Source: an uncultured Flavobacteriaceae bacterium (lineage in GTDB: Bacteria; Bacteroidota; Bacteroidia; Flavobacteriales; Flavobacteriaceae). From it: a DNA stretch of 64,000 bases. The position numbers and the translations under genes are program-made. Below, piece after piece: positions 50,436-58,030 of the stretch; position 1 is the stretch's first letter; every line of letters starts with the position of its first letter. Location: the NCBI GenBank assembly GCA_905182295.1, contig CAJJAZ010000005.1, positions 62,001 to 126,000 on the forward strand. The letters run 5' to 3'. The notes beneath the pieces were generated by a model, which saw nothing but the letters and a program-made list of their open reading frames with translations, searched no databases and was not told the DNA's origin.

Positions 50436-52991
50436 ATGGATGATAATTTTTCACCTAGAGTAAAAGATGTGATTGCCTACAGTAAAGAAGAGGCCCTTAG
50501 ATTGGGACATGACTTTATTGGAACGGAACACTTAATGTTGGGATTGTTAAGAGATGGTGGCGGTAAAGCCATTAGCATCTTAGACGCCCTATCAGTAGAT
50601 TTAGAACACCTGAGAAGAAAGGTAGAAATCCTTAGTCCAGCCAATCCAAACCCTAGTTTGGTGCATCAGGACAAAAAGAACCTCCACCTAACCAGACAAG
50701 CAGAAAGGGCCTTAAAGACTACTTTTTTAGAAGCCAAACTCTTTCAGAGCACCGCTATAAATACGGCGCATTTGCTGTTGTGTATTCTCAGAAATGAGAA
50801 TGACCCTACCACCAAATTATTACAGAAAATGATGGTAGACTACGACGGTGTAAAAGAGCAGTTTAAGTCTATGATCACTTCAGACGACGATTATACCAGC
50901 GGACCAACTGAGGCCTCTTTCTCCAGTGAATCTGACGCAGAGGAAGGTGCTGGTGAATCTTTTGGCGGCGGAACAACTGCCAACAAGTCAGGAAAAAAAT
51001 CAAAGACCCCTGTTTTAGACAATTTTGGTAGAGACCTGACCCAAATGGCAGAAGAAGACCGTTTAGATCCTGTGGTTGGAAGACAAAAGGAAATAGAGCG
51101 TGTGTCTCAAATTTTAAGCCGTAGAAAGAAAAATAACCCCCTATTGATCGGAGAACCTGGAGTGGGTAAAAGTGCCATTGCAGAGGGATTGGCACTTAGA
51201 ATCATTCAAAAAAAGGTCTCTAGGATACTCTTCAACAAAAGGGTAGTTACTTTAGACTTAGCTTCCCTAGTAGCGGGCACAAAATACCGTGGTCAATTCG
51301 AAGAACGCATGAAAGCGGTCATGAACGAATTGGAGAAAAATGACGACATTATCTTATTTATAGATGAAATTCACACCATTGTTGGTGCTGGTGGTGCTAC
51401 AGGGAGCTTAGACGCTTCCAATATGTTTAAACCTGCCCTAGCCAGAGGAGAAGTCCAATGTATTGGAGCCACTACTTTAGATGAGTTTAGACAGCACATT
51501 GAAAAAGATGGTGCCTTAGAAAGAAGGTTCCAAAAAGTAATTGTGGAACCTACATCAGTAACAGAAACCCTTGAAATTCTCAAAAACATTAAACCCAAAT
51601 ACGAAGACCACCACAATGTAACTTATACCGATGAGGCTTTAGAAGCATGTGTGACCCTTACAGACAGGTACATTACGGACCGCTTCCTACCAGACAAGGC
51701 CATTGACGCTTTAGATGAAGTAGGTTCTAGAGTACACATCACTAATATGCATGTGCCCAAACAGATTGTCAGTTTAGAAAGCCAATTAGAAACTGTACGT
51801 GAAGAAAAAAATACTGTGGTTAAAAAGCAGCGTTATGAAGAGGCAGCAAAATTAAGAGACGACGAGAAAAAACTGGAAAAAGCACTTCAAGAGGCCCAAG
51901 ACAAATGGGAAGAAGAGAGCAAATTACATAAGGAAGTGGTTACAGATGACCACGTTGCCGACGTGGTTTCTATGATGAGTGGTATTCCAGTCACTAGAAT
52001 TGCGCAAGCAGAAAGCACTAAACTGGCAAAATTACCAGAGATTATTCAAGAAGCCGTTATTGGACAAAACGAAGCAGTCGCTAAGGTAGCAAGAGCCATT
52101 CAAAGAAATAGGGCGGGATTAAAAGACCCCAACAAACCCATAGGATCTTTTATATTTCTAGGCCAAACCGGTGTAGGAAAAACACAGTTGGCTAAAGTAT
52201 TGGCTAAGGAATTGTTTGACTCTGAAGAATCGCTCATCCGTATTGACATGAGTGAGTACATGGAGAAGTTTGCCATTTCTAGGTTAATAGGTTCCCCTCC
52301 AGGCTATGTTGGTTATGAAGAAGGTGGGCAGTTAACTGAAAAAGTAAGGCGCAAACCTTATGCGGTCATTTTATTGGACGAGGTAGAGAAAGCACATCCA
52401 GATGTGTTTAACACCATGCTCCAAGTATTAGATGACGGTTATTTAACAGATAGTTTAGGCCGCAAGATTGATTTTAGAAACACCATTATTATCATGACGT
52501 CTAATATTGGGTCTAGACAACTTAAAGACTTTGGTCAGGGAGTTGGTTTTGGTACAGCTTCTATGAAATCTCAATCTGACAAGCACAATAAAGGGGTGAT
52601 AGAAAATGCACTTAAAAAAACATTTGCCCCTGAGTTTCTTAACAGAATAGACGACATTGTTATCTTTAACGCATTGGAGCAAGAAGACATTCACTTGATC
52701 ATTGACATTGAATTAAAGAAATTATACAAGCGAATTGAGGGACTCGGTTACCAATTGAAACTGTCCAAAAAGGCAAAAGATTTTATTGCAAAAAAAGGAT
52801 TTGATAAACAGTTTGGGGCCAGACCACTTAAAAGGGCCATTCAAAAGTATATTGAAGACAGTTTAGCAGAGCAGATTGTCAATGCTAATTTGGTCTCAGG
52901 AGACACCATTTCCTTAGACAGGGATGACAAAGACGATGAAAAATTAAAAGTCACCATTAAAAAAGCAGAAGAATCTTCTGAAGCCTCTTAA
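50436..52991 (+). CDS. clpC: ATP-dependent Clp protease ATP-binding subunit ClpC
   Basis: 851-aa Hsp100 unfoldase. The duplicated N-domain (residues about 1-145) starts DNFSPRVKDVIAYSKEEALRLGHDFIG. Two AAA+ modules follow with Walker A motifs GEPGVGKS and GQTGVGKT, separated by a UVR-like coiled coil (QRYEEAAKLRDDEKKLEKAL). A VGF tripeptide in the second module (GQGVGFGT) is the expected ClpP-docking loop. I chose the ATG at 50436 over the TTG at 50415 because the latter lies inside a -7 box. It feeds unfolded proteins to ClpP; clpP is not in the window. A strong terminator follows. Confidence 0.95.
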   Translation: MDDNFSPRVKDVIAYSKEEALRLGHDFIGTEHLMLGLLRDGGGKAISILDALSVDLEHLRRKVEILSPANPNPSLVHQDKKNLHLTRQAERALKTTFLEAKLFQSTAINTAHLLLCILRNENDPTTKLLQKMMVDYDGVKEQFKSMITSDDDYTSGPTEASFSSESDAEEGAGESFGGGTTANKSGKKSKTPVLDNFGRDLTQMAEEDRLDPVVGRQKEIERVSQILSRRKKNNPLLIGEPGVGKSAIAEGLALRIIQKKVSRILFNKRVVTLDLASLVAGTKYRGQFEERMKAVMNELEKNDDIILFIDEIHTIVGAGGATGSLDASNMFKPALARGEVQCIGATTLDEFRQHIEKDGALERRFQKVIVEPTSVTETLEILKNIKPKYEDHHNVTYTDEALEACVTLTDRYITDRFLPDKAIDALDEVGSRVHITNMHVPKQIVSLESQLETVREEKNTVVKKQRYEEAAKLRDDEKKLEKALQEAQDKWEEESKLHKEVVTDDHVADVVSMMSGIPVTRIAQAESTKLAKLPEIIQEAVIGQNEAVAKVARAIQRNRAGLKDPNKPIGSFIFLGQTGVGKTQLAKVLAKELFDSEESLIRIDMSEYMEKFAISRLIGSPPGYVGYEEGGQLTEKVRRKPYAVILLDEVEKAHPDVFNTMLQVLDDGYLTDSLGRKIDFRNTIIIMTSNIGSRQLKDFGQGVGFGTASMKSQSDKHNKGVIENALKKTFAPEFLNRIDDIVIFNALEQEDIHLIIDIELKKLYKRIEGLGYQLKLSKKAKDFIAKKGFDKQFGARPLKRAIQKYIEDSLAEQIVNANLVSGDTISLDRDDKDDEKLKVTIKKAEESSEAS

Positions 52992-53006
52992 TTCATTCAA
53001 CATTAT

Positions 53007-53039
53007 AAAAAAGCCGCTCCTCATAGGAGCGGCTTTTTT
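53007..53039. terminator. Intrinsic terminator after clpC
   Basis: A perfect 9-bp GC-rich stem (GCCGCTCCT/AGGAGCGGC, loop CAT) flanked by A6 and T6. It separates clpC from the thr operon. Confidence 0.9.
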
Positions 53040-53149
53040 GATATTCCTTCATTTCTAAGTATATATCTTAAAATTCTCATCAAAAAGCACCTAAAATTAC
53101 ATATCTCCTAAAAATAAGTGTTTTACAATGCTTGGGTAGACCATTTGGC

Positions 53150-53157
53150 TATATTTG
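53150..53157 (+). promoter_or_regulatory. -7 promoter box of the threonine operon
   Basis: TATATTTG matches TANNTTTG. It lies 20 bases before the ATG of the putative leader peptide and 166 bases before thrA, so the transcript would carry a long leader. A TTG at 53132-53134 is 15 bases upstream, a little close for a -33 element. Confidence 0.55.
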
Positions 53158-53176
53158 AAAGAAAAATCATCACAGC

Positions 53177-53263
53177 ATGCCATTATTAGTTCGTTCTGAA
53201 TTTACAGGCAGTCGTTTTTTAACGAGTACATTTGCTATGGCTACTACTACAGGAACCCCTTAG
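53177..53263 (+). CDS. Putative threonine-rich leader peptide of the thr operon
   Basis: A 28-codon frame beginning ATG CCA TTA and ending at TAG (53261). Seven of 28 residues are Thr, including an ATTTGTP end with three Thr codons in a row; Thr and Ser together fill much of the second half. Its stop codon lies in a palindrome (ACCCC-TTA-GGGGT, 53255-53267). It sits between a -7 box and thrA, where an attenuation leader would be expected. By analogy with ThrL of enteric bacteria it may sense charged tRNA-Thr. A T-rich stretch at 53290-53310 follows, but I could not draw a classical terminator stem right before it. Too short for conventional gene callers. Confidence 0.6.
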   Translation: MPLLVRSEFTGSRFLTSTFAMATTTGTP

Positions 53264-53322
53264 GGGTACTAGATGATTACTTCCGCAACCTATTTATTTT
53301 TTTATTTCTTAAAATTTAACCC

Positions 53323-55767
53323 ATGAATGTTTTAAAATTCGGTGGTACCTCAGTAGCCAACGCACAAAATATAAGTCTTGTAAAAAATATTGTTCAGCAG
53401 AACGCTTACAAAAAACAATATGTTATTGTTTCTGCACTAGGAGGCATCACAGATTTATTAATAGACACCGCAGCTATAGCAGCAAATCAAGACCCCCAAT
53501 ACAAAACACCTTTAAATAAGATTGAAAAAAGACACCTAGACACAGTCAAAACGCTTATAGCGCCTAACGATCAATCTGCTATTCTAAGTCAGATTAAAGC
53601 GGCACTAAATACCTTAGAAACCCTTTTAGAGGGTGCTTTCCTCATAGGAGAGATCACCCCAAAACTCTCCGACAAAATCGTGAGCTTTGGAGAACTGCTG
53701 TCTTCTTATATCATCAGTGCCTACTTTAAGTCTCAGGGTTTAGACGCCATTCATGCAGACGCAAGAACACTCATTACTACAGACCAATTGCACGGTAAAG
53801 CAACTGTTAACTACCAGCTGACCAACCAAAAATTGCAAGAATTCAACGGGGCCAATAAAAACGCTATTGTAGTGATGGGTGGGTTTATTGCTTCTAGCAC
53901 AGAAGGCTTAGCTACAACGCTGGGAAGGGGTGGTTCAGATTTTACAGCAGCTATTGTCTCAGCAGCTCTAAACGCTGAATTGCTCGAAATATACACCGAT
54001 GTAAGCGGCATGTTTACAGCAAACCCAAAATTGGTTAAGCAAGCCAGACCCATCACCAGTATTTCTTATGAAGAGGCCATGGAATTGTCCCATTTTGGTG
54101 CTAAAGTGCTCTACCCTCCTACCATCCAACCGGTGTTACAAAAACAAATTCCTATTGCTATAAAAAATACTTTTGAGCCACAAGCAGTGGGTACACTGAT
54201 CCAAAAACAAGTCTCAGAAGGGAATAAAACGGTACAGGGGATTAGCCATGTAGAAAACATCGCCTTAATTTCATTAGAAGGCTCTGGTATGGTAGGCATA
54301 CCCGGAATATCTAAAAGATTTTTTGAAGTGCTCTCCAATGCAAAAATAAGTGTGGTGCTTATTACTCAAGCCTCTTCTGAACATTCTATCTGTGTAGGTA
54401 TTTCTGCAGAAGACACTACAGCCGCTGTGGTTTTAGTGAATGAAGCCTTCGAATTTGAAATGTCACAGGGAAAAATTAAAGCGGTCATTGCAGAAAATAA
54501 TTTGGCTATTATTGCACTAGTAGGAGATCAGATGAAAAAGCACCAAGGTTTAAGTGGTAAGATGTTTGCTACCTTGGGTAAAAACAATGTCAACATCAGG
54601 GCTATTGCACAAGGCGCTTCTGAGCGAAACATCTCTGCGGTAATAGAAAAAACAGACGTTAAAAAAGCATTAAACGCCTTACACGAAGTCTTTTTTGAAG
54701 AAAACATTAAACAGTTAAACCTCTTTGTAATGGGGTCTGGAAATGTGGGCGCAAAATTGTTAGAGCAATTGGCCCAACAAAAAGACTACCTCAAAAAGCA
54801 GTTAAAACTTTCTGTTAGGGTCATAGGTATTAGCAATTCTAGAACCATGTGCTTTAAATCGGAAGGATTAGATCTCAAAAATTGGCAAAACACCCTTTCC
54901 AAAGGGGAGAAAGCAAATATGCCGCTCTTTTTAGAAAAAATCCTAAGTCTAAACCTTAGAAATGCCATTTTTGTAGACAATACCGCGAGTGAATTGGTCG
55001 CAAATACTTACGCAGATTATCTATCAAAAAGTATTTCTGTGGTCACCTGTAACAAAATTGCCTGTGCGGCTGCTTATCCAAATTATAGAAAGCTCAAAGA
55101 TTTGGCCAGAACTTACAATGCCTCATTTTTATTCGAGACAAACGTAGGAGCTGGATTGCCTATTATAGACACCCTAAAAAATCTCGTTGCCTCTGGAGAT
55201 GAGGTCAAAGAAATTCAGGCGGTATTATCCGGAAGTCTCAACTTTGTCTTTAATCATTTTAATGACCAAACAACTTTCCACGATGTGGTAAAACAAGCTC
55301 AGGAAGAAGGCTACACAGAGCCAGATCCAACCATAGATCTAAGCGGAATAGACGTCATGCGTAAAATACTTATCCTAGCGAGAGAAAGTGGTCATATAAT
55401 GGAAATAAATGACATAGAAAACAATTCATTTTTACCCGTAGAAAGTCTAGAAACCCATTCAAATGAAGCTTTCTTTGAAAGTTTAATAAAATATGAATCT
55501 GATTTCCAAGCCATGTACCAAAAGGCATCGGCCAAAGGCGCAAAGCTAAAATACGTGGCCAGCTTTAAAGACGGAAAAGCCTCAGTGGGGCTTCAAGAAA
55601 TACCCCAAGGTCATGATTTTTACGCTTTAGAAGGAAGTGATAATATAGTGCTCTTTTATACAGAGCGCTATCCAAATCAGCCTATGATTATTAAAGGTGC
55701 TGGTGCTGGGGCAGCTGTCACAGCCTCTGGTATATTTGCAGACATTATCCGAGTTGGAAACTTTTAA
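53323..55767 (+). CDS. thrA: Bifunctional aspartate kinase / homoserine dehydrogenase I
   Basis: 814-aa fused enzyme catalysing the first and third steps from aspartate to threonine. The kinase domain (about residues 1-290) starts MNVLKFGGTSVAN and has GRGGSDFTAA. Two ACT regulatory modules span about 310-460, implying feedback control by threonine. The homoserine dehydrogenase domain (about 465-814) has the NAD(P) motif VMGSGNVGAKLL, the substrate region TNVGAGLPIIDTL and the GAGAGAAVTASGI end. First structural gene of the thr operon, preceded by the long leader. Confidence 0.97.
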   Translation: MNVLKFGGTSVANAQNISLVKNIVQQNAYKKQYVIVSALGGITDLLIDTAAIAANQDPQYKTPLNKIEKRHLDTVKTLIAPNDQSAILSQIKAALNTLETLLEGAFLIGEITPKLSDKIVSFGELLSSYIISAYFKSQGLDAIHADARTLITTDQLHGKATVNYQLTNQKLQEFNGANKNAIVVMGGFIASSTEGLATTLGRGGSDFTAAIVSAALNAELLEIYTDVSGMFTANPKLVKQARPITSISYEEAMELSHFGAKVLYPPTIQPVLQKQIPIAIKNTFEPQAVGTLIQKQVSEGNKTVQGISHVENIALISLEGSGMVGIPGISKRFFEVLSNAKISVVLITQASSEHSICVGISAEDTTAAVVLVNEAFEFEMSQGKIKAVIAENNLAIIALVGDQMKKHQGLSGKMFATLGKNNVNIRAIAQGASERNISAVIEKTDVKKALNALHEVFFEENIKQLNLFVMGSGNVGAKLLEQLAQQKDYLKKQLKLSVRVIGISNSRTMCFKSEGLDLKNWQNTLSKGEKANMPLFLEKILSLNLRNAIFVDNTASELVANTYADYLSKSISVVTCNKIACAAAYPNYRKLKDLARTYNASFLFETNVGAGLPIIDTLKNLVASGDEVKEIQAVLSGSLNFVFNHFNDQTTFHDVVKQAQEEGYTEPDPTIDLSGIDVMRKILILARESGHIMEINDIENNSFLPVESLETHSNEAFFESLIKYESDFQAMYQKASAKGAKLKYVASFKDGKASVGLQEIPQGHDFYALEGSDNIVLFYTERYPNQPMIIKGAGAGAAVTASGIFADIIRVGNF

Positions 55768-55798: not shown

Positions 55799-56719
55799 AT
55801 GAAGTCTATACGTGTATTTTGTCCTGGAACTATTGCCAATGTATCTTGCGGCTTTGACGTCCTTGGTCTTTCTCTTGCAGGCGTAGGAGAATATATGACC
55901 GTGACACAAACCCCTACAAAAGGAATTACAATTAGCGAAATTACAGGACAAGAACTTCCGCTAGAAACCGCTAAAAATGTAGCTGGTGTAGCTGGATTGG
56001 CACTTTTAGAAGCCTTGGGTAGCGAGGCTGGCTTTGACATTAAAATAGAGAAGCGCATAAAAGCTGGAAGCGGAATAGGCAGCAGTGCTGCAAGCAGCGC
56101 TGGCGCGGTATGGGCCATAAATCATCTATTAGGCAATCCTTACACTACAATAGAACTCATTCCATTTGCCATGGAAGGAGAACGTCTGGCTTCAGGAGTT
56201 GCTCATGCAGATAATGTAGCTCCGGCTTTACTAGGAGGCTTTACACTGGTGAGAAGCACGGACCCGCTAGATGTTATTTCACTCCCAAGTCCTAGTGAAC
56301 TTTACGCCACTGTAATACACCCCCAAATTGAAATTAAAACAGCAGATTCTAGAAGGATTTTAAAATCTAGCCTCTCCCTTAAAGACGCTATTACCCAATG
56401 GGGAAACGTAGGTGGGTTGGTCGCTGGATTATACCGAGAAGATTACGAATTAATCGGTCGCTCTTTACAAGATGTAGTGATTGAACCCGTGAGAAGCATA
56501 CTGATTCCTGGATTTAATGAGATAAAAGAAGCTGCTTTAAGAGCAGGTGCATTGGGATGTGGTATATCTGGCTCTGGACCCTCAGTTTTTGCCCTTTCTA
56601 GAGGGGCAGAAAAAGCCCACGAAGTGGCGAAATATTTAAAGGATTTGTATATCCCTATGGAAATACCATTCGATATACACGTTTCTAACATCAATAAAAA
56701 AGGGGTGTACCCCGCTTAG
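55799..56719 (+). CDS. thrB: Homoserine kinase
   Basis: 306-aa GHMP kinase phosphorylating L-homoserine. The N-terminal CPGTIANVSCGFDVLG strand and the phosphate loop GSGIGSSAASSAGA (about residue 96) define the family, and GCGISGSGPSVFAL is the third GHMP motif. It lies 31 bases after thrA and 6 bases before thrC. Confidence 0.96.
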   Translation: MKSIRVFCPGTIANVSCGFDVLGLSLAGVGEYMTVTQTPTKGITISEITGQELPLETAKNVAGVAGLALLEALGSEAGFDIKIEKRIKAGSGIGSSAASSAGAVWAINHLLGNPYTTIELIPFAMEGERLASGVAHADNVAPALLGGFTLVRSTDPLDVISLPSPSELYATVIHPQIEIKTADSRRILKSSLSLKDAITQWGNVGGLVAGLYREDYELIGRSLQDVVIEPVRSILIPGFNEIKEAALRAGALGCGISGSGPSVFALSRGAEKAHEVAKYLKDLYIPMEIPFDIHVSNINKKGVYPA

Positions 56720-56725
56720 TATAAA

Positions 56726-58030
56726 ATGAAATATTTTTCAATAGACACCCCAAGTTTAAAAGCAAGCTTTAAAGAAGCAGTCATTAAAGGTATAGCTCCA
56801 GACAAAGGATTGTATTATCCAGATCACATTCCTAGCTTAGACGCCAGTTTTTTTGAACGCATAGAAAGCCTTAGTCCAGTAGAAATTGGCCTAGAAGTCA
56901 TGCGTCCTTTTACCAAAGACATTTTAAGTAAAAGTGATTTAAAAAAGATTTTAGAAACTGTATTAGATTTTGATTTTCCAGTGGTATCCCTTACAGAATC
57001 TGTTGGATCTTTGGAATTATTTCACGGACCTACCCTAGCCTTTAAGGATGTTGGAGCGCGTTTTATGGCCCAATGCCTCGGTTTGTTTTCTGAAAAAAAT
57101 CAAGCGCCTATAACCGTATTGGTAGCTACATCTGGAGATACCGGAGGTGCTGTAGCCAATGGGTTTTTAGGGGTAGAAGGTGTAGAGGTAGTGATCTTAT
57201 ACCCCAGCGGTAAAGTGAGTCCTATACAGGAAAAACAACTCACTACCCTGGGACAAAATATTCGAGCTTTAGAAGTAGACGGCACCTTTGATGATTGTCA
57301 AAAAATGGTTAAAACAGCTTTTTTAGATAAAGATATAACAGACCACAAACAACTCACTTCTGCCAATTCAATAAACGTAGCAAGATGGTTACCACAAATG
57401 TTGTACTATTTCTTGGCCTACAAAGCCTTAAAACCCTCCTTAGACAAAAGTGGTAAAGAACTCGTTTTCTCTGTTCCTTCTGGAAACTTTGGAAACATCT
57501 GTGCCGGCATGGTCGCCAGAGAAATGGGACTTCCTGTGACTCACTTTATAGCTGCTACTAATGCCAATAAGGTAGTGCCTAACTTCATGAAGCAGGGGAA
57601 ATACCAACCAGAAAAATCCATTGCTACCATTTCTAATGCCATGGATGTAGGAGACCCTAGCAACTTTGTTAGAATCCTACAAATGAATCAAAACGAACAC
57701 AGCATTTTAGAAAAAGGATTCAGTGCTTTTAGTTTTACAGATGCAGAAACCAAAGAGGCCATGCGTGCTATAGCGCAAGAACACGGCTATACTGCAGAGC
57801 CACACGGGGCAATAGGATATTTAGGGCTTGTAGAATATCAAAAAGACCATCCCAATACCTATGGGGTATTCTTAGAAACCGCACACCCAGTAAAATTCTT
57901 AGAAGTAGTAGAAGAAACCCTGGGTAAGACACTGACCATACCTAAGAAAATTGTAGAGGTATTGTCCAAACAAAAGCAAGCCAGTAAAATTTCTAATTAC
58001 GAGGGACTCAAGGACTTCATAATGCAATAA
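56726..58030 (+). CDS. thrC: Threonine synthase
   Basis: 434-aa PLP enzyme converting O-phosphohomoserine to threonine. The PLP lysine is Lys107 in LAFKDVGARFMA, and the phosphate-binding loop ATSGDTGGAVANG follows. The N-terminal MKYFSIDTPSLKASFKEAV region is that of the long, yeast/E. coli type. Last gene of the thr operon; a minus-strand gene converges 7 bases later. Confidence 0.96.
   Translation: MKYFSIDTPSLKASFKEAVIKGIAPDKGLYYPDHIPSLDASFFERIESLSPVEIGLEVMRPFTKDILSKSDLKKILETVLDFDFPVVSLTESVGSLELFHGPTLAFKDVGARFMAQCLGLFSEKNQAPITVLVATSGDTGGAVANGFLGVEGVEVVILYPSGKVSPIQEKQLTTLGQNIRALEVDGTFDDCQKMVKTAFLDKDITDHKQLTSANSINVARWLPQMLYYFLAYKALKPSLDKSGKELVFSVPSGNFGNICAGMVAREMGLPVTHFIAATNANKVVPNFMKQGKYQPEKSIATISNAMDVGDPSNFVRILQMNQNEHSILEKGFSAFSFTDAETKEAMRAIAQEHGYTAEPHGAIGYLGLVEYQKDHPNTYGVFLETAHPVKFLEVVEETLGKTLTIPKKIVEVLSKQKQASKISNYEGLKDFIMQ

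Follow-up and report, generated by a model that had tools for sequence, protein, structure and literature searches.

The question raised by this locus is how the thrABC operon of an uncultured bacterium of the Flavobacteriaceae is regulated and, in particular, whether the short reading frame directly preceding it acts as an attenuation leader. The window, that is, the whole stretch of DNA analysed, comprises 64,000 nucleotides, and its first-pass annotation had interpreted the region as ribosome-mediated attenuation in the layout of enteric thrL, with the caveat that the mechanism could instead be translational or Rho-dependent. Here, the element is best read as a threonine- and isoleucine-sensing leader-peptide attenuator of thrABC, most likely with a Rho-dependent read-out, a reading to which a probability of roughly one half is given.

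Layout of the thr leader

The locus is organized as follows:

53006-53040, plus strand: intrinsic terminator of the upstream gene, which we take to be clpC-like; 16-pair stem plus T-run, from the terminator scan
53150-53157, plus strand: –7 promoter box TATATTTG, read directly, of the Bacteroidota type TAHHTTTG
53177-53263, plus strand: leader peptide ORF MPLLVRSEFTGSRFLTSTFAMATTTGTP, 28 codons, ATG at 53177, seven Thr, stop in hairpin P2
53243-53257, plus strand: regulatory codon cluster ACT ACT ACA GGA ACC, the presumed ribosome stall zone
53255-53267, plus strand: hairpin P2, ACCCC-TTA-GGGGT, spanning the leader stop
53268-53322, plus strand: unstructured tract with C over G, containing ATTACTTCCGCAACC at 53276, a candidate Rho-loading site
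53323-55767, plus strand: presumably thrA, bifunctional aspartokinase-homoserine dehydrogenase, 814 aa, from the ORF list; ThrA relatives were found
55799-56719, plus strand: presumably thrB, homoserine kinase, 306 aa, from the ORF list
56726-58030, plus strand: presumably thrC, threonine synthase, 434 aa, from the ORF list

The terminator at 53006-53040 separates the clpC-like gene from the thr leader. The –7 box that had been claimed upstream of the leader frame is present, and it stands 19 bases before the ATG, not 20 as had been counted. For Bacteroidota, a –7 consensus of TAHHTTTG with a spacing of 4-5 nt to the start is described in PMC6847099, and transcription of the leader would begin near 53162. 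All seven threonine codons attributed to the 28-codon frame were located (ACA 53204, ACG 53222, ACA 53228, ACT 53243, ACT 53246, ACA 53249 and ACC 53255); seven Thr in 27 leader codons has a probability of about 5e-4 at a 5.5% background, the proteins of the window averaging 5.2% Thr and 6.8% Ile. The leader stop, TAG at 53261-53263, does lie within the ACCCC-TTA-GGGGT palindrome, and ACCCCNNNGGGGT is found once in the 64 kb window, where 0.02 occurrences are expected. The T-rich stretch placed before thrA also exists, its run beginning at 53291 between the leader stop and thrA, and the gap from the stop to thrA is 59 bases, one fewer than had been claimed. A short ORF with a run of codons for the pathway product is found just upstream of the operon, as in attenuators of the thrL/trpL/hisL type.

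Among named relatives, the closest one found was Flavobacteria bacterium MS024-3C, whose ThrA is 95% identical. A second aspartokinase/homoserine dehydrogenase relative was observed in the window's own genome (G000:C3:178009-180414), in a long open frame of 1154 aa, and its counterparts occur in many relatives.

Conservation of the leader frame and of hairpin P2

All leaders compared were reached through ThrA similarity, and the counts cover genomes above the cut-offs. The first ThrA search matched 58 of 60 genomes, of which 30 were read, plus four later; the family search matched 57 of 299 genomes at a strict cut-off, and the class search matched 37 of 247, 35 being read of the 36 other than the window's own. 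The upstream regions read correspond to 30 loci, 80 named loci, 60 further loci (56 from the family and four from the order) and 35 loci, 31 of these last 35 belonging to other families of the class. Some genomes recur among the sets, the same genome standing twice, for example, as L003/L032, L005/L033, L006/L034 and L007/L035. A P2 anchor was lacking in L024, L027 and L028 (of L002-L031), in L076 (truncated), L088 and L092 (of L032-L111) and in L236 and L258 (of L201-L260), and L213 and L260 were dropped for spurious anchors. The set of 138 leaders consists of 125 leaders, obtained by 90% collapse of 159, and 13 of the 35 class-level loci. The other 22 comprise six whose hairpin, at the leader stop or close to it, has another sequence (L274, where it is weak, L277, L279, L284, L287 and L297), one classical attenuator (L302) and 15 without a convincing Thr leader by eye.

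The alignment of relatives proposed in the first-pass annotation revealed that an open frame, its Thr codons and its stop at P2 are kept upstream of thrA. Of 203 upstream regions, 162 contain a P2-like motif at a distance of 50-170 nt from thrA, compared with 0.4% of shuffles, and the anchor was not used for this count. The reading frame was evaluated in 89 of 108 non-redundant leaders, namely those having ACCCC; in 86 of them, no stop interrupts the 24 codons of the frame that runs into P2, the other two frames being open over the same length in 14 and 25, with a shuffled mean of 20.6. Over its last 16 codons, the leader frame holds 26% Thr and 13% Ile, against 1-3% and 4-5% in the other frames. 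At each of the seven positions preceding the ACC of P2, Thr accounts for 26-60% and Ile for 8-31% of the codons in the 89 leaders, the last position before P2 reaching 60% Thr and 31% Ile. All 138 leaders have an ORF that ends at P2, a figure that has to be read knowing that the search itself required an ORF stopping at P2, with ATG, GTG and TTG starts allowed. The ORF choice took the most Thr/Ile-rich start (99 ATG, 30 TTG and 9 GTG), and peptide lengths are accordingly uncertain. Additionally, 102 of 136 leaders carry a TAHHTTTG box upstream of P2, at a distance of 75-135 nt and a median spacing of 104 nt (shuffles, 3.4%), and the consensus of 96 distinct anchored leaders consists of a run of ACN codons, ACCCC-TTT-GGGG-TAA and then TATATAT and TCCGT.

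The peptide itself changes freely. The five nearest leaders show 14 synonymous versus 60 non-synonymous codon differences (60 of 74 pairwise), and 99 wider leader pairs show 264 and 872, respectively. What is conserved in the leader is thus only its codon content, frame and end, and not the peptide sequence. Non-conserved peptide sequences are usual for leader peptides. It is this comparative evidence that most strongly disfavours a chance origin of the leader; the frame is probably translated, and a leader-peptide sensor can be considered established with high confidence. Therefore, the sensor half of the likeness to enteric thrL drawn in the first-pass annotation is strongly supported by the conservation of the frame, the Thr and Ile codons, the stop at P2 and the –7 box, whose spacing is nearly constant.

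In the four nearest relatives, the leader stop lies three codons further on, TTG occupying the position of the TAG of the window, and P2 is mostly found 66-130 nt before thrA in the relatives. These distances bear on the proposal that the uORF chiefly serves to increase thrA translation through reinitiation (Korolev et al. 2016). Many leader ORFs lie close to genes, with a peak in Bacteroidetes, as reported in PMC4833913, but that peak falls at 11-14 bp, whereas the gap is 59 nt here, and reinitiation leaves the Thr and Ile codons unexplained, so that very little probability is given to this role.

In two relatives, L028 (G020:C10) and L027 (G023:C18), thrA showed no leader of its own and follows ilvD on the same strand at a distance of about 5 kb. 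In L270 (G457:C230:2946-3018), from another family of the class, the same Thr-rich leader and hairpin precede, by eye, a thrB-like gene and not thrA; the element is therefore tied to the thr pathway and not to a single gene.

In the 96 distinct leaders, the ACCC and one G of P2 are invariant, which is partly a product of selection, given that they were chosen with a CCC..GGG anchor; the count of 162 of 203 is anchor-free. The family alignment contains no compensatory pairs in P2, and RNAalifold on 82 leaders recovered only a 3-pair P2. This absence of covariation, together with the strict ACCCC/GGGGT sequence, is what would be expected if P2 were a DNA operator, an inverted repeat for a repressor or roadblock protein, the reading frame being secondary. 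However, the spacer or loop length of P2 varies among leaders, and from family to family the Thr codons and the stop accompany P2. Other families have similarly shaped stems of another sequence, as in L277 (ACGGG-GUAA-CCCGU, with the stop in the loop), L297 (ACGGG-GUGA-CCCGU) and L284 (CCCGG-UAA-CCGGG), which fold at -6.9 to -7.6 kcal/mol. Moreover, ACCCCNNNGGGGTA gave 8 matches outside thr leaders versus 18 for its reversed control in ten genomes, no regulon being seen. Due to the variable loop length and the different stem sequences of other families, P2 probably acts as RNA, and a DNA operator is highly improbable.

Terminators, alternative pairings and the C-over-G tract

The first reading could draw no terminator stem beside the T-run, and the scan of 52900-53500 agrees with it, having returned the terminator of the upstream gene and one minus-strand site and none in the leader. 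The intrinsic terminator that classical attenuators carry between the leader ORF and the first gene is absent here. When a uniform scan at -8 kcal/mol or better was applied, a terminator was detected in 27 of 28 hisG leaders, 25 of 29 pheA leaders and 15 of 138 thr leaders; three of 138 shuffled thr leaders also pass, and in 11 of the 15 matches the stem is P2 itself beside a weak T-window. In the window's own genome, the hisG leader encodes the peptide MTQTHTHHHFIYCAQAR (L122, G000:C6, hisG at 122943) and the pheA leader encodes MTLSTNFWNRFYFYFYFNRSTGLF (L177, G000:C3), each followed by a strong intrinsic terminator. Most relatives examined likewise have hisG and pheA leader peptides with strong terminators, and the ilvD upstream regions yielded no convincing leader (29 of 30 pheA and 26 of 30 ilvD loci served as controls). 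Judging from the hisG and pheA leaders, this genome and its relatives make use of leader-peptide attenuation, and the contrast in the terminator scan therefore implies that the output of the flavobacterial thr leader differs from that of its his and phe neighbours.

Outside the family, 17 Thr leaders were scanned. Two of them have classical terminators with matching antiterminators, L302 (-18.0 kcal/mol) and L284 (-23.3 kcal/mol), with duplexes of -17.1 and -16.2 kcal/mol; L275, L294 and L303 also pass -8 kcal/mol, and the rest do not. The textbook pairs of L284 and L302 suggest that the output module was exchanged during evolution. In a threonine attenuator spread through Bacteroidia, an ancestral intrinsic terminator may have been replaced by a Rho-dependent output in the Flavobacteriaceae, with the sensor and the stop hairpin kept and the hisG and pheA leaders retaining their terminators, although this scenario is rather doubtful.

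Classical attenuation may indeed be the ancestral design, as L302 and L284 illustrate, and it could persist here with a non-standard intrinsic terminator, formed either by P2 and an A/U-rich stretch or by a stem between the uORF start and the post-P2 region ended by the T-run. Many Muricauda-like leaders contain AAACGGA in their uORF, which can pair with a UCCGUUU that immediately precedes a T-run, and pairing of the uORF start with the post-P2 region reached p 0.006 in the full set of 71 leaders. Nevertheless, the few leaders scoring as terminators do so mostly through P2, the post-P2 block is retained by eye where its 5′ partner is absent, and within the window's clade L006 and L007 disrupt the AAUCAUC/GAUGAUU pairing, which makes such a terminator unlikely.

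Alternative pairings were evaluated by swap tests on 12 region pairs in three sets, amounting to 36 tests. Among these, the uORF-start/post-P2 pairing gave p 0.054 in the main clade and 0.43 in the rest; pairing of the second half of the uORF with the post-S1 region gave p 0.0055, 0.007 and 0.28 (all, main clade and rest), and its pairing with the last 40 nt gave p 0.005 in the main clade. An earlier long-range swap test gave p 0.02, and no long-range pairing is secure after 36 tests. The search for alternative hairpins advised in the first-pass annotation was likewise unproductive in the window's own leader, where folding 53163-53340 gave nothing better than shuffled sequences (z -0.20). A strong pairing between P3 and the last 40 nt was discarded because the two windows overlap. 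An antiterminator made by the G-arm and downstream RNA is predicted in 90 of 110 leaders yet is weaker than shuffles (mean z +0.68 for the freed G-arm with downstream RNA, 16% below zero, 110 leaders). The output half of the thrL likeness is not supported, as neither an intrinsic terminator nor a secure antiterminator pairing was found.

A further hairpin, termed P3, is plain by eye 15-60 nt after P2 in many species (L008, L011, L036, L053, L105, L227, L240, L305 and others), with a U-rich loop and a very variable stem (GCGA/UCGC, GCCU/AGGC, GUUUG/CAAAC) that no T-run follows; none was seen by eye in the window's own clade. Over 110 leaders, the P3 region is only mildly structured overall (mean z -0.51, 33% below -1), and less signal still was obtained for a hairpin within the uORF (z -0.29, 24%). 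When 395 genomes were searched with a covariance model, 11 matches were obtained, which give no distribution estimate; the search was insensitive, 12 candidates being scored per genome and the own genome being missed.

Since the thr leaders have no terminator, control could also be exerted by translation or mRNA decay, stalling altering ribosome access to thrA or protecting the transcript without early termination, for which the speF leader offers a precedent (PMC6386406). A hidden thrA start is nevertheless not favoured, as the pairing of the two post-P2 segments with the start is weaker than that of swapped partners (native -8.8 and -8.8, all combinations -9.6 and -10.1 kcal/mol), and this form of control is judged unlikely. 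The weaker pairing of the 3′ segments of the leader with the thrA start hints at selection against start-codon structure.

The caveat of the first reading was apt, and the data lean towards Rho. C-rich, G-poor and unstructured RNA is a known hallmark of Rho loading. The tract at 53268-53322 contains 20% C and 5% G, and the RNA between P2 and thrA averages 20.3% C and 8.4% G (C/G 2.4), C exceeding G in 96% of 138 leaders. In control 5′ regions, C/G amounts to 0.99 for hisG, 0.78 for pheA, 0.97 for ilvD and 1.06 for 25 window genes. The mean of C minus G is 0.115 in 110 non-redundant leaders versus -0.014 in 83 controls (p 4e-25, not corrected for relatedness). The last 20 nt before the start are G-poor in most controls too, and the bias of the thr leaders spans the whole tract. 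In addition, shuffled sequences fold better than the block after P2 does (z +0.57), and rho was found above the cut-off in the own genome (G000:C3:51962-53683) and in 28 of 31 genomes. The combination expected of Rho-dependent attenuators is thus found, namely C-over-G unstructured RNA, no intrinsic terminator and a rho gene. The C-over-G bias can have other causes. A Rho-dependent output is put forward tentatively, at slightly below even odds.

Proposed mechanism and relation to known systems

From these features, we infer translation and stalling on the leader, the dynamics of P2 and the action of Rho. A ribosome would begin the leader ORF soon after transcription starts. When charged tRNA-Thr or tRNA-Ile is scarce, it would stall just before P2, covering the 5′ arm ACCCC and leaving P2 unfolded. 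When the supply is good, the ribosome would reach the stop at P2 and leave, so that P2 can form and the C-rich, G-poor, unstructured RNA that follows the stop becomes exposed. This tract would most likely load Rho, and transcription would end before thrA or early in it. The weakest link is how the stalled ribosome would spare the transcript, considering that the RNA accessible to Rho is no shorter with it than with a released ribosome, which argues against the Rho model; the Rho logic therefore needs an extra switch. The freed GGGGU arm might mask the tract, or the absence of P2 might remove a pause needed by Rho, and no coevolution support for either was obtained in the pairing tests.

The thrL leader of enteric bacteria is rich in Thr and Ile codons. 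The flavobacterial element resembles E. coli thrL (RF00506) in having a short ORF rich in these codons directly before the thrA of thrABC, and differs from it by its stop-spanning hairpin, no intrinsic terminator or secure antiterminator having been found. At E<=10, an Rfam search gave 43 sub-threshold matches at the locus, none in the leader, the better ones lying on the terminator of the upstream gene. RF00506 stayed below its gathering score, with 28.8 and 23.4 bits against a cut-off of 55, and both of its matches cover that terminator. RF01692 was not among the 43.

Besides the speF leader of Salmonella, mgtL and tnaC are further leader ORFs linked to Rho. The speF orf34 resembles the thr leader, by description and not by sequence, in that codons for one amino acid occur in the leader ORF, no intrinsic terminator was found and Rho acts on the leader. 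It differs in that loss of ORF translation increases Rho termination and that arginine acts through RNase G, the upstream ORF affecting RNase G cleavage and the ribosome-binding site (PMC6386406); furthermore, speF is not an amino-acid biosynthetic attenuator. Rho-linked leader ORFs of enterics are treated in PMC12121999 and PMC6386406.

Within the Flavobacteriaceae, the hisG and pheA leaders share the sensing principle, with His-run and Phe-rich leader peptides, and have the strong intrinsic terminators that the thr leader lacks. The hisG and pheA 5′ leader elements are named for F. psychrophilum in PMC9723704, whose supplementary tables may hold a thrA entry. Bacteroid-trp RNA (RF01692; PMC2864571, discussed for F. 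psychrophilum in PMC6414381) likewise places an amino-acid operon of Bacteroidetes under putative leader-type control, but it sits upstream of trp, unlike the thr leader. Leader-like sORFs in Bacteroides are covered in PMC7366714 and ilv leaders in PMC10272879, and PMC4833913 cites Lopatovskaya 2010, which may include Bacteroidetes. The terms bacteroid, flavobacter, threonine and thrA have no occurrence in the main text of PMC2965389, and among the best-ranked titles and abstract openings listed from the open-licence literature, neither this thr leader nor the control of threonine operons in Bacteroidota is described, beyond general leader-peptide remarks. Published work has already suggested that flavobacteria use leader-peptide attenuation, and the thr leader is a variant of it.

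The Thr/Ile leader peptide, conserved within the family and recognisable in other families, offers a testable mechanism in a phylum without Shine-Dalgarno initiation. As the his and phe leaders of the same genome carry ordinary terminators, the thr leader isolates stalled-ribosome control without an intrinsic terminator, and its C-over-G tract represents a concrete candidate Rho site in Bacteroidota. If the replacement of a terminator by Rho were true, the sensor and the output of such leaders would be separable evolutionary modules.
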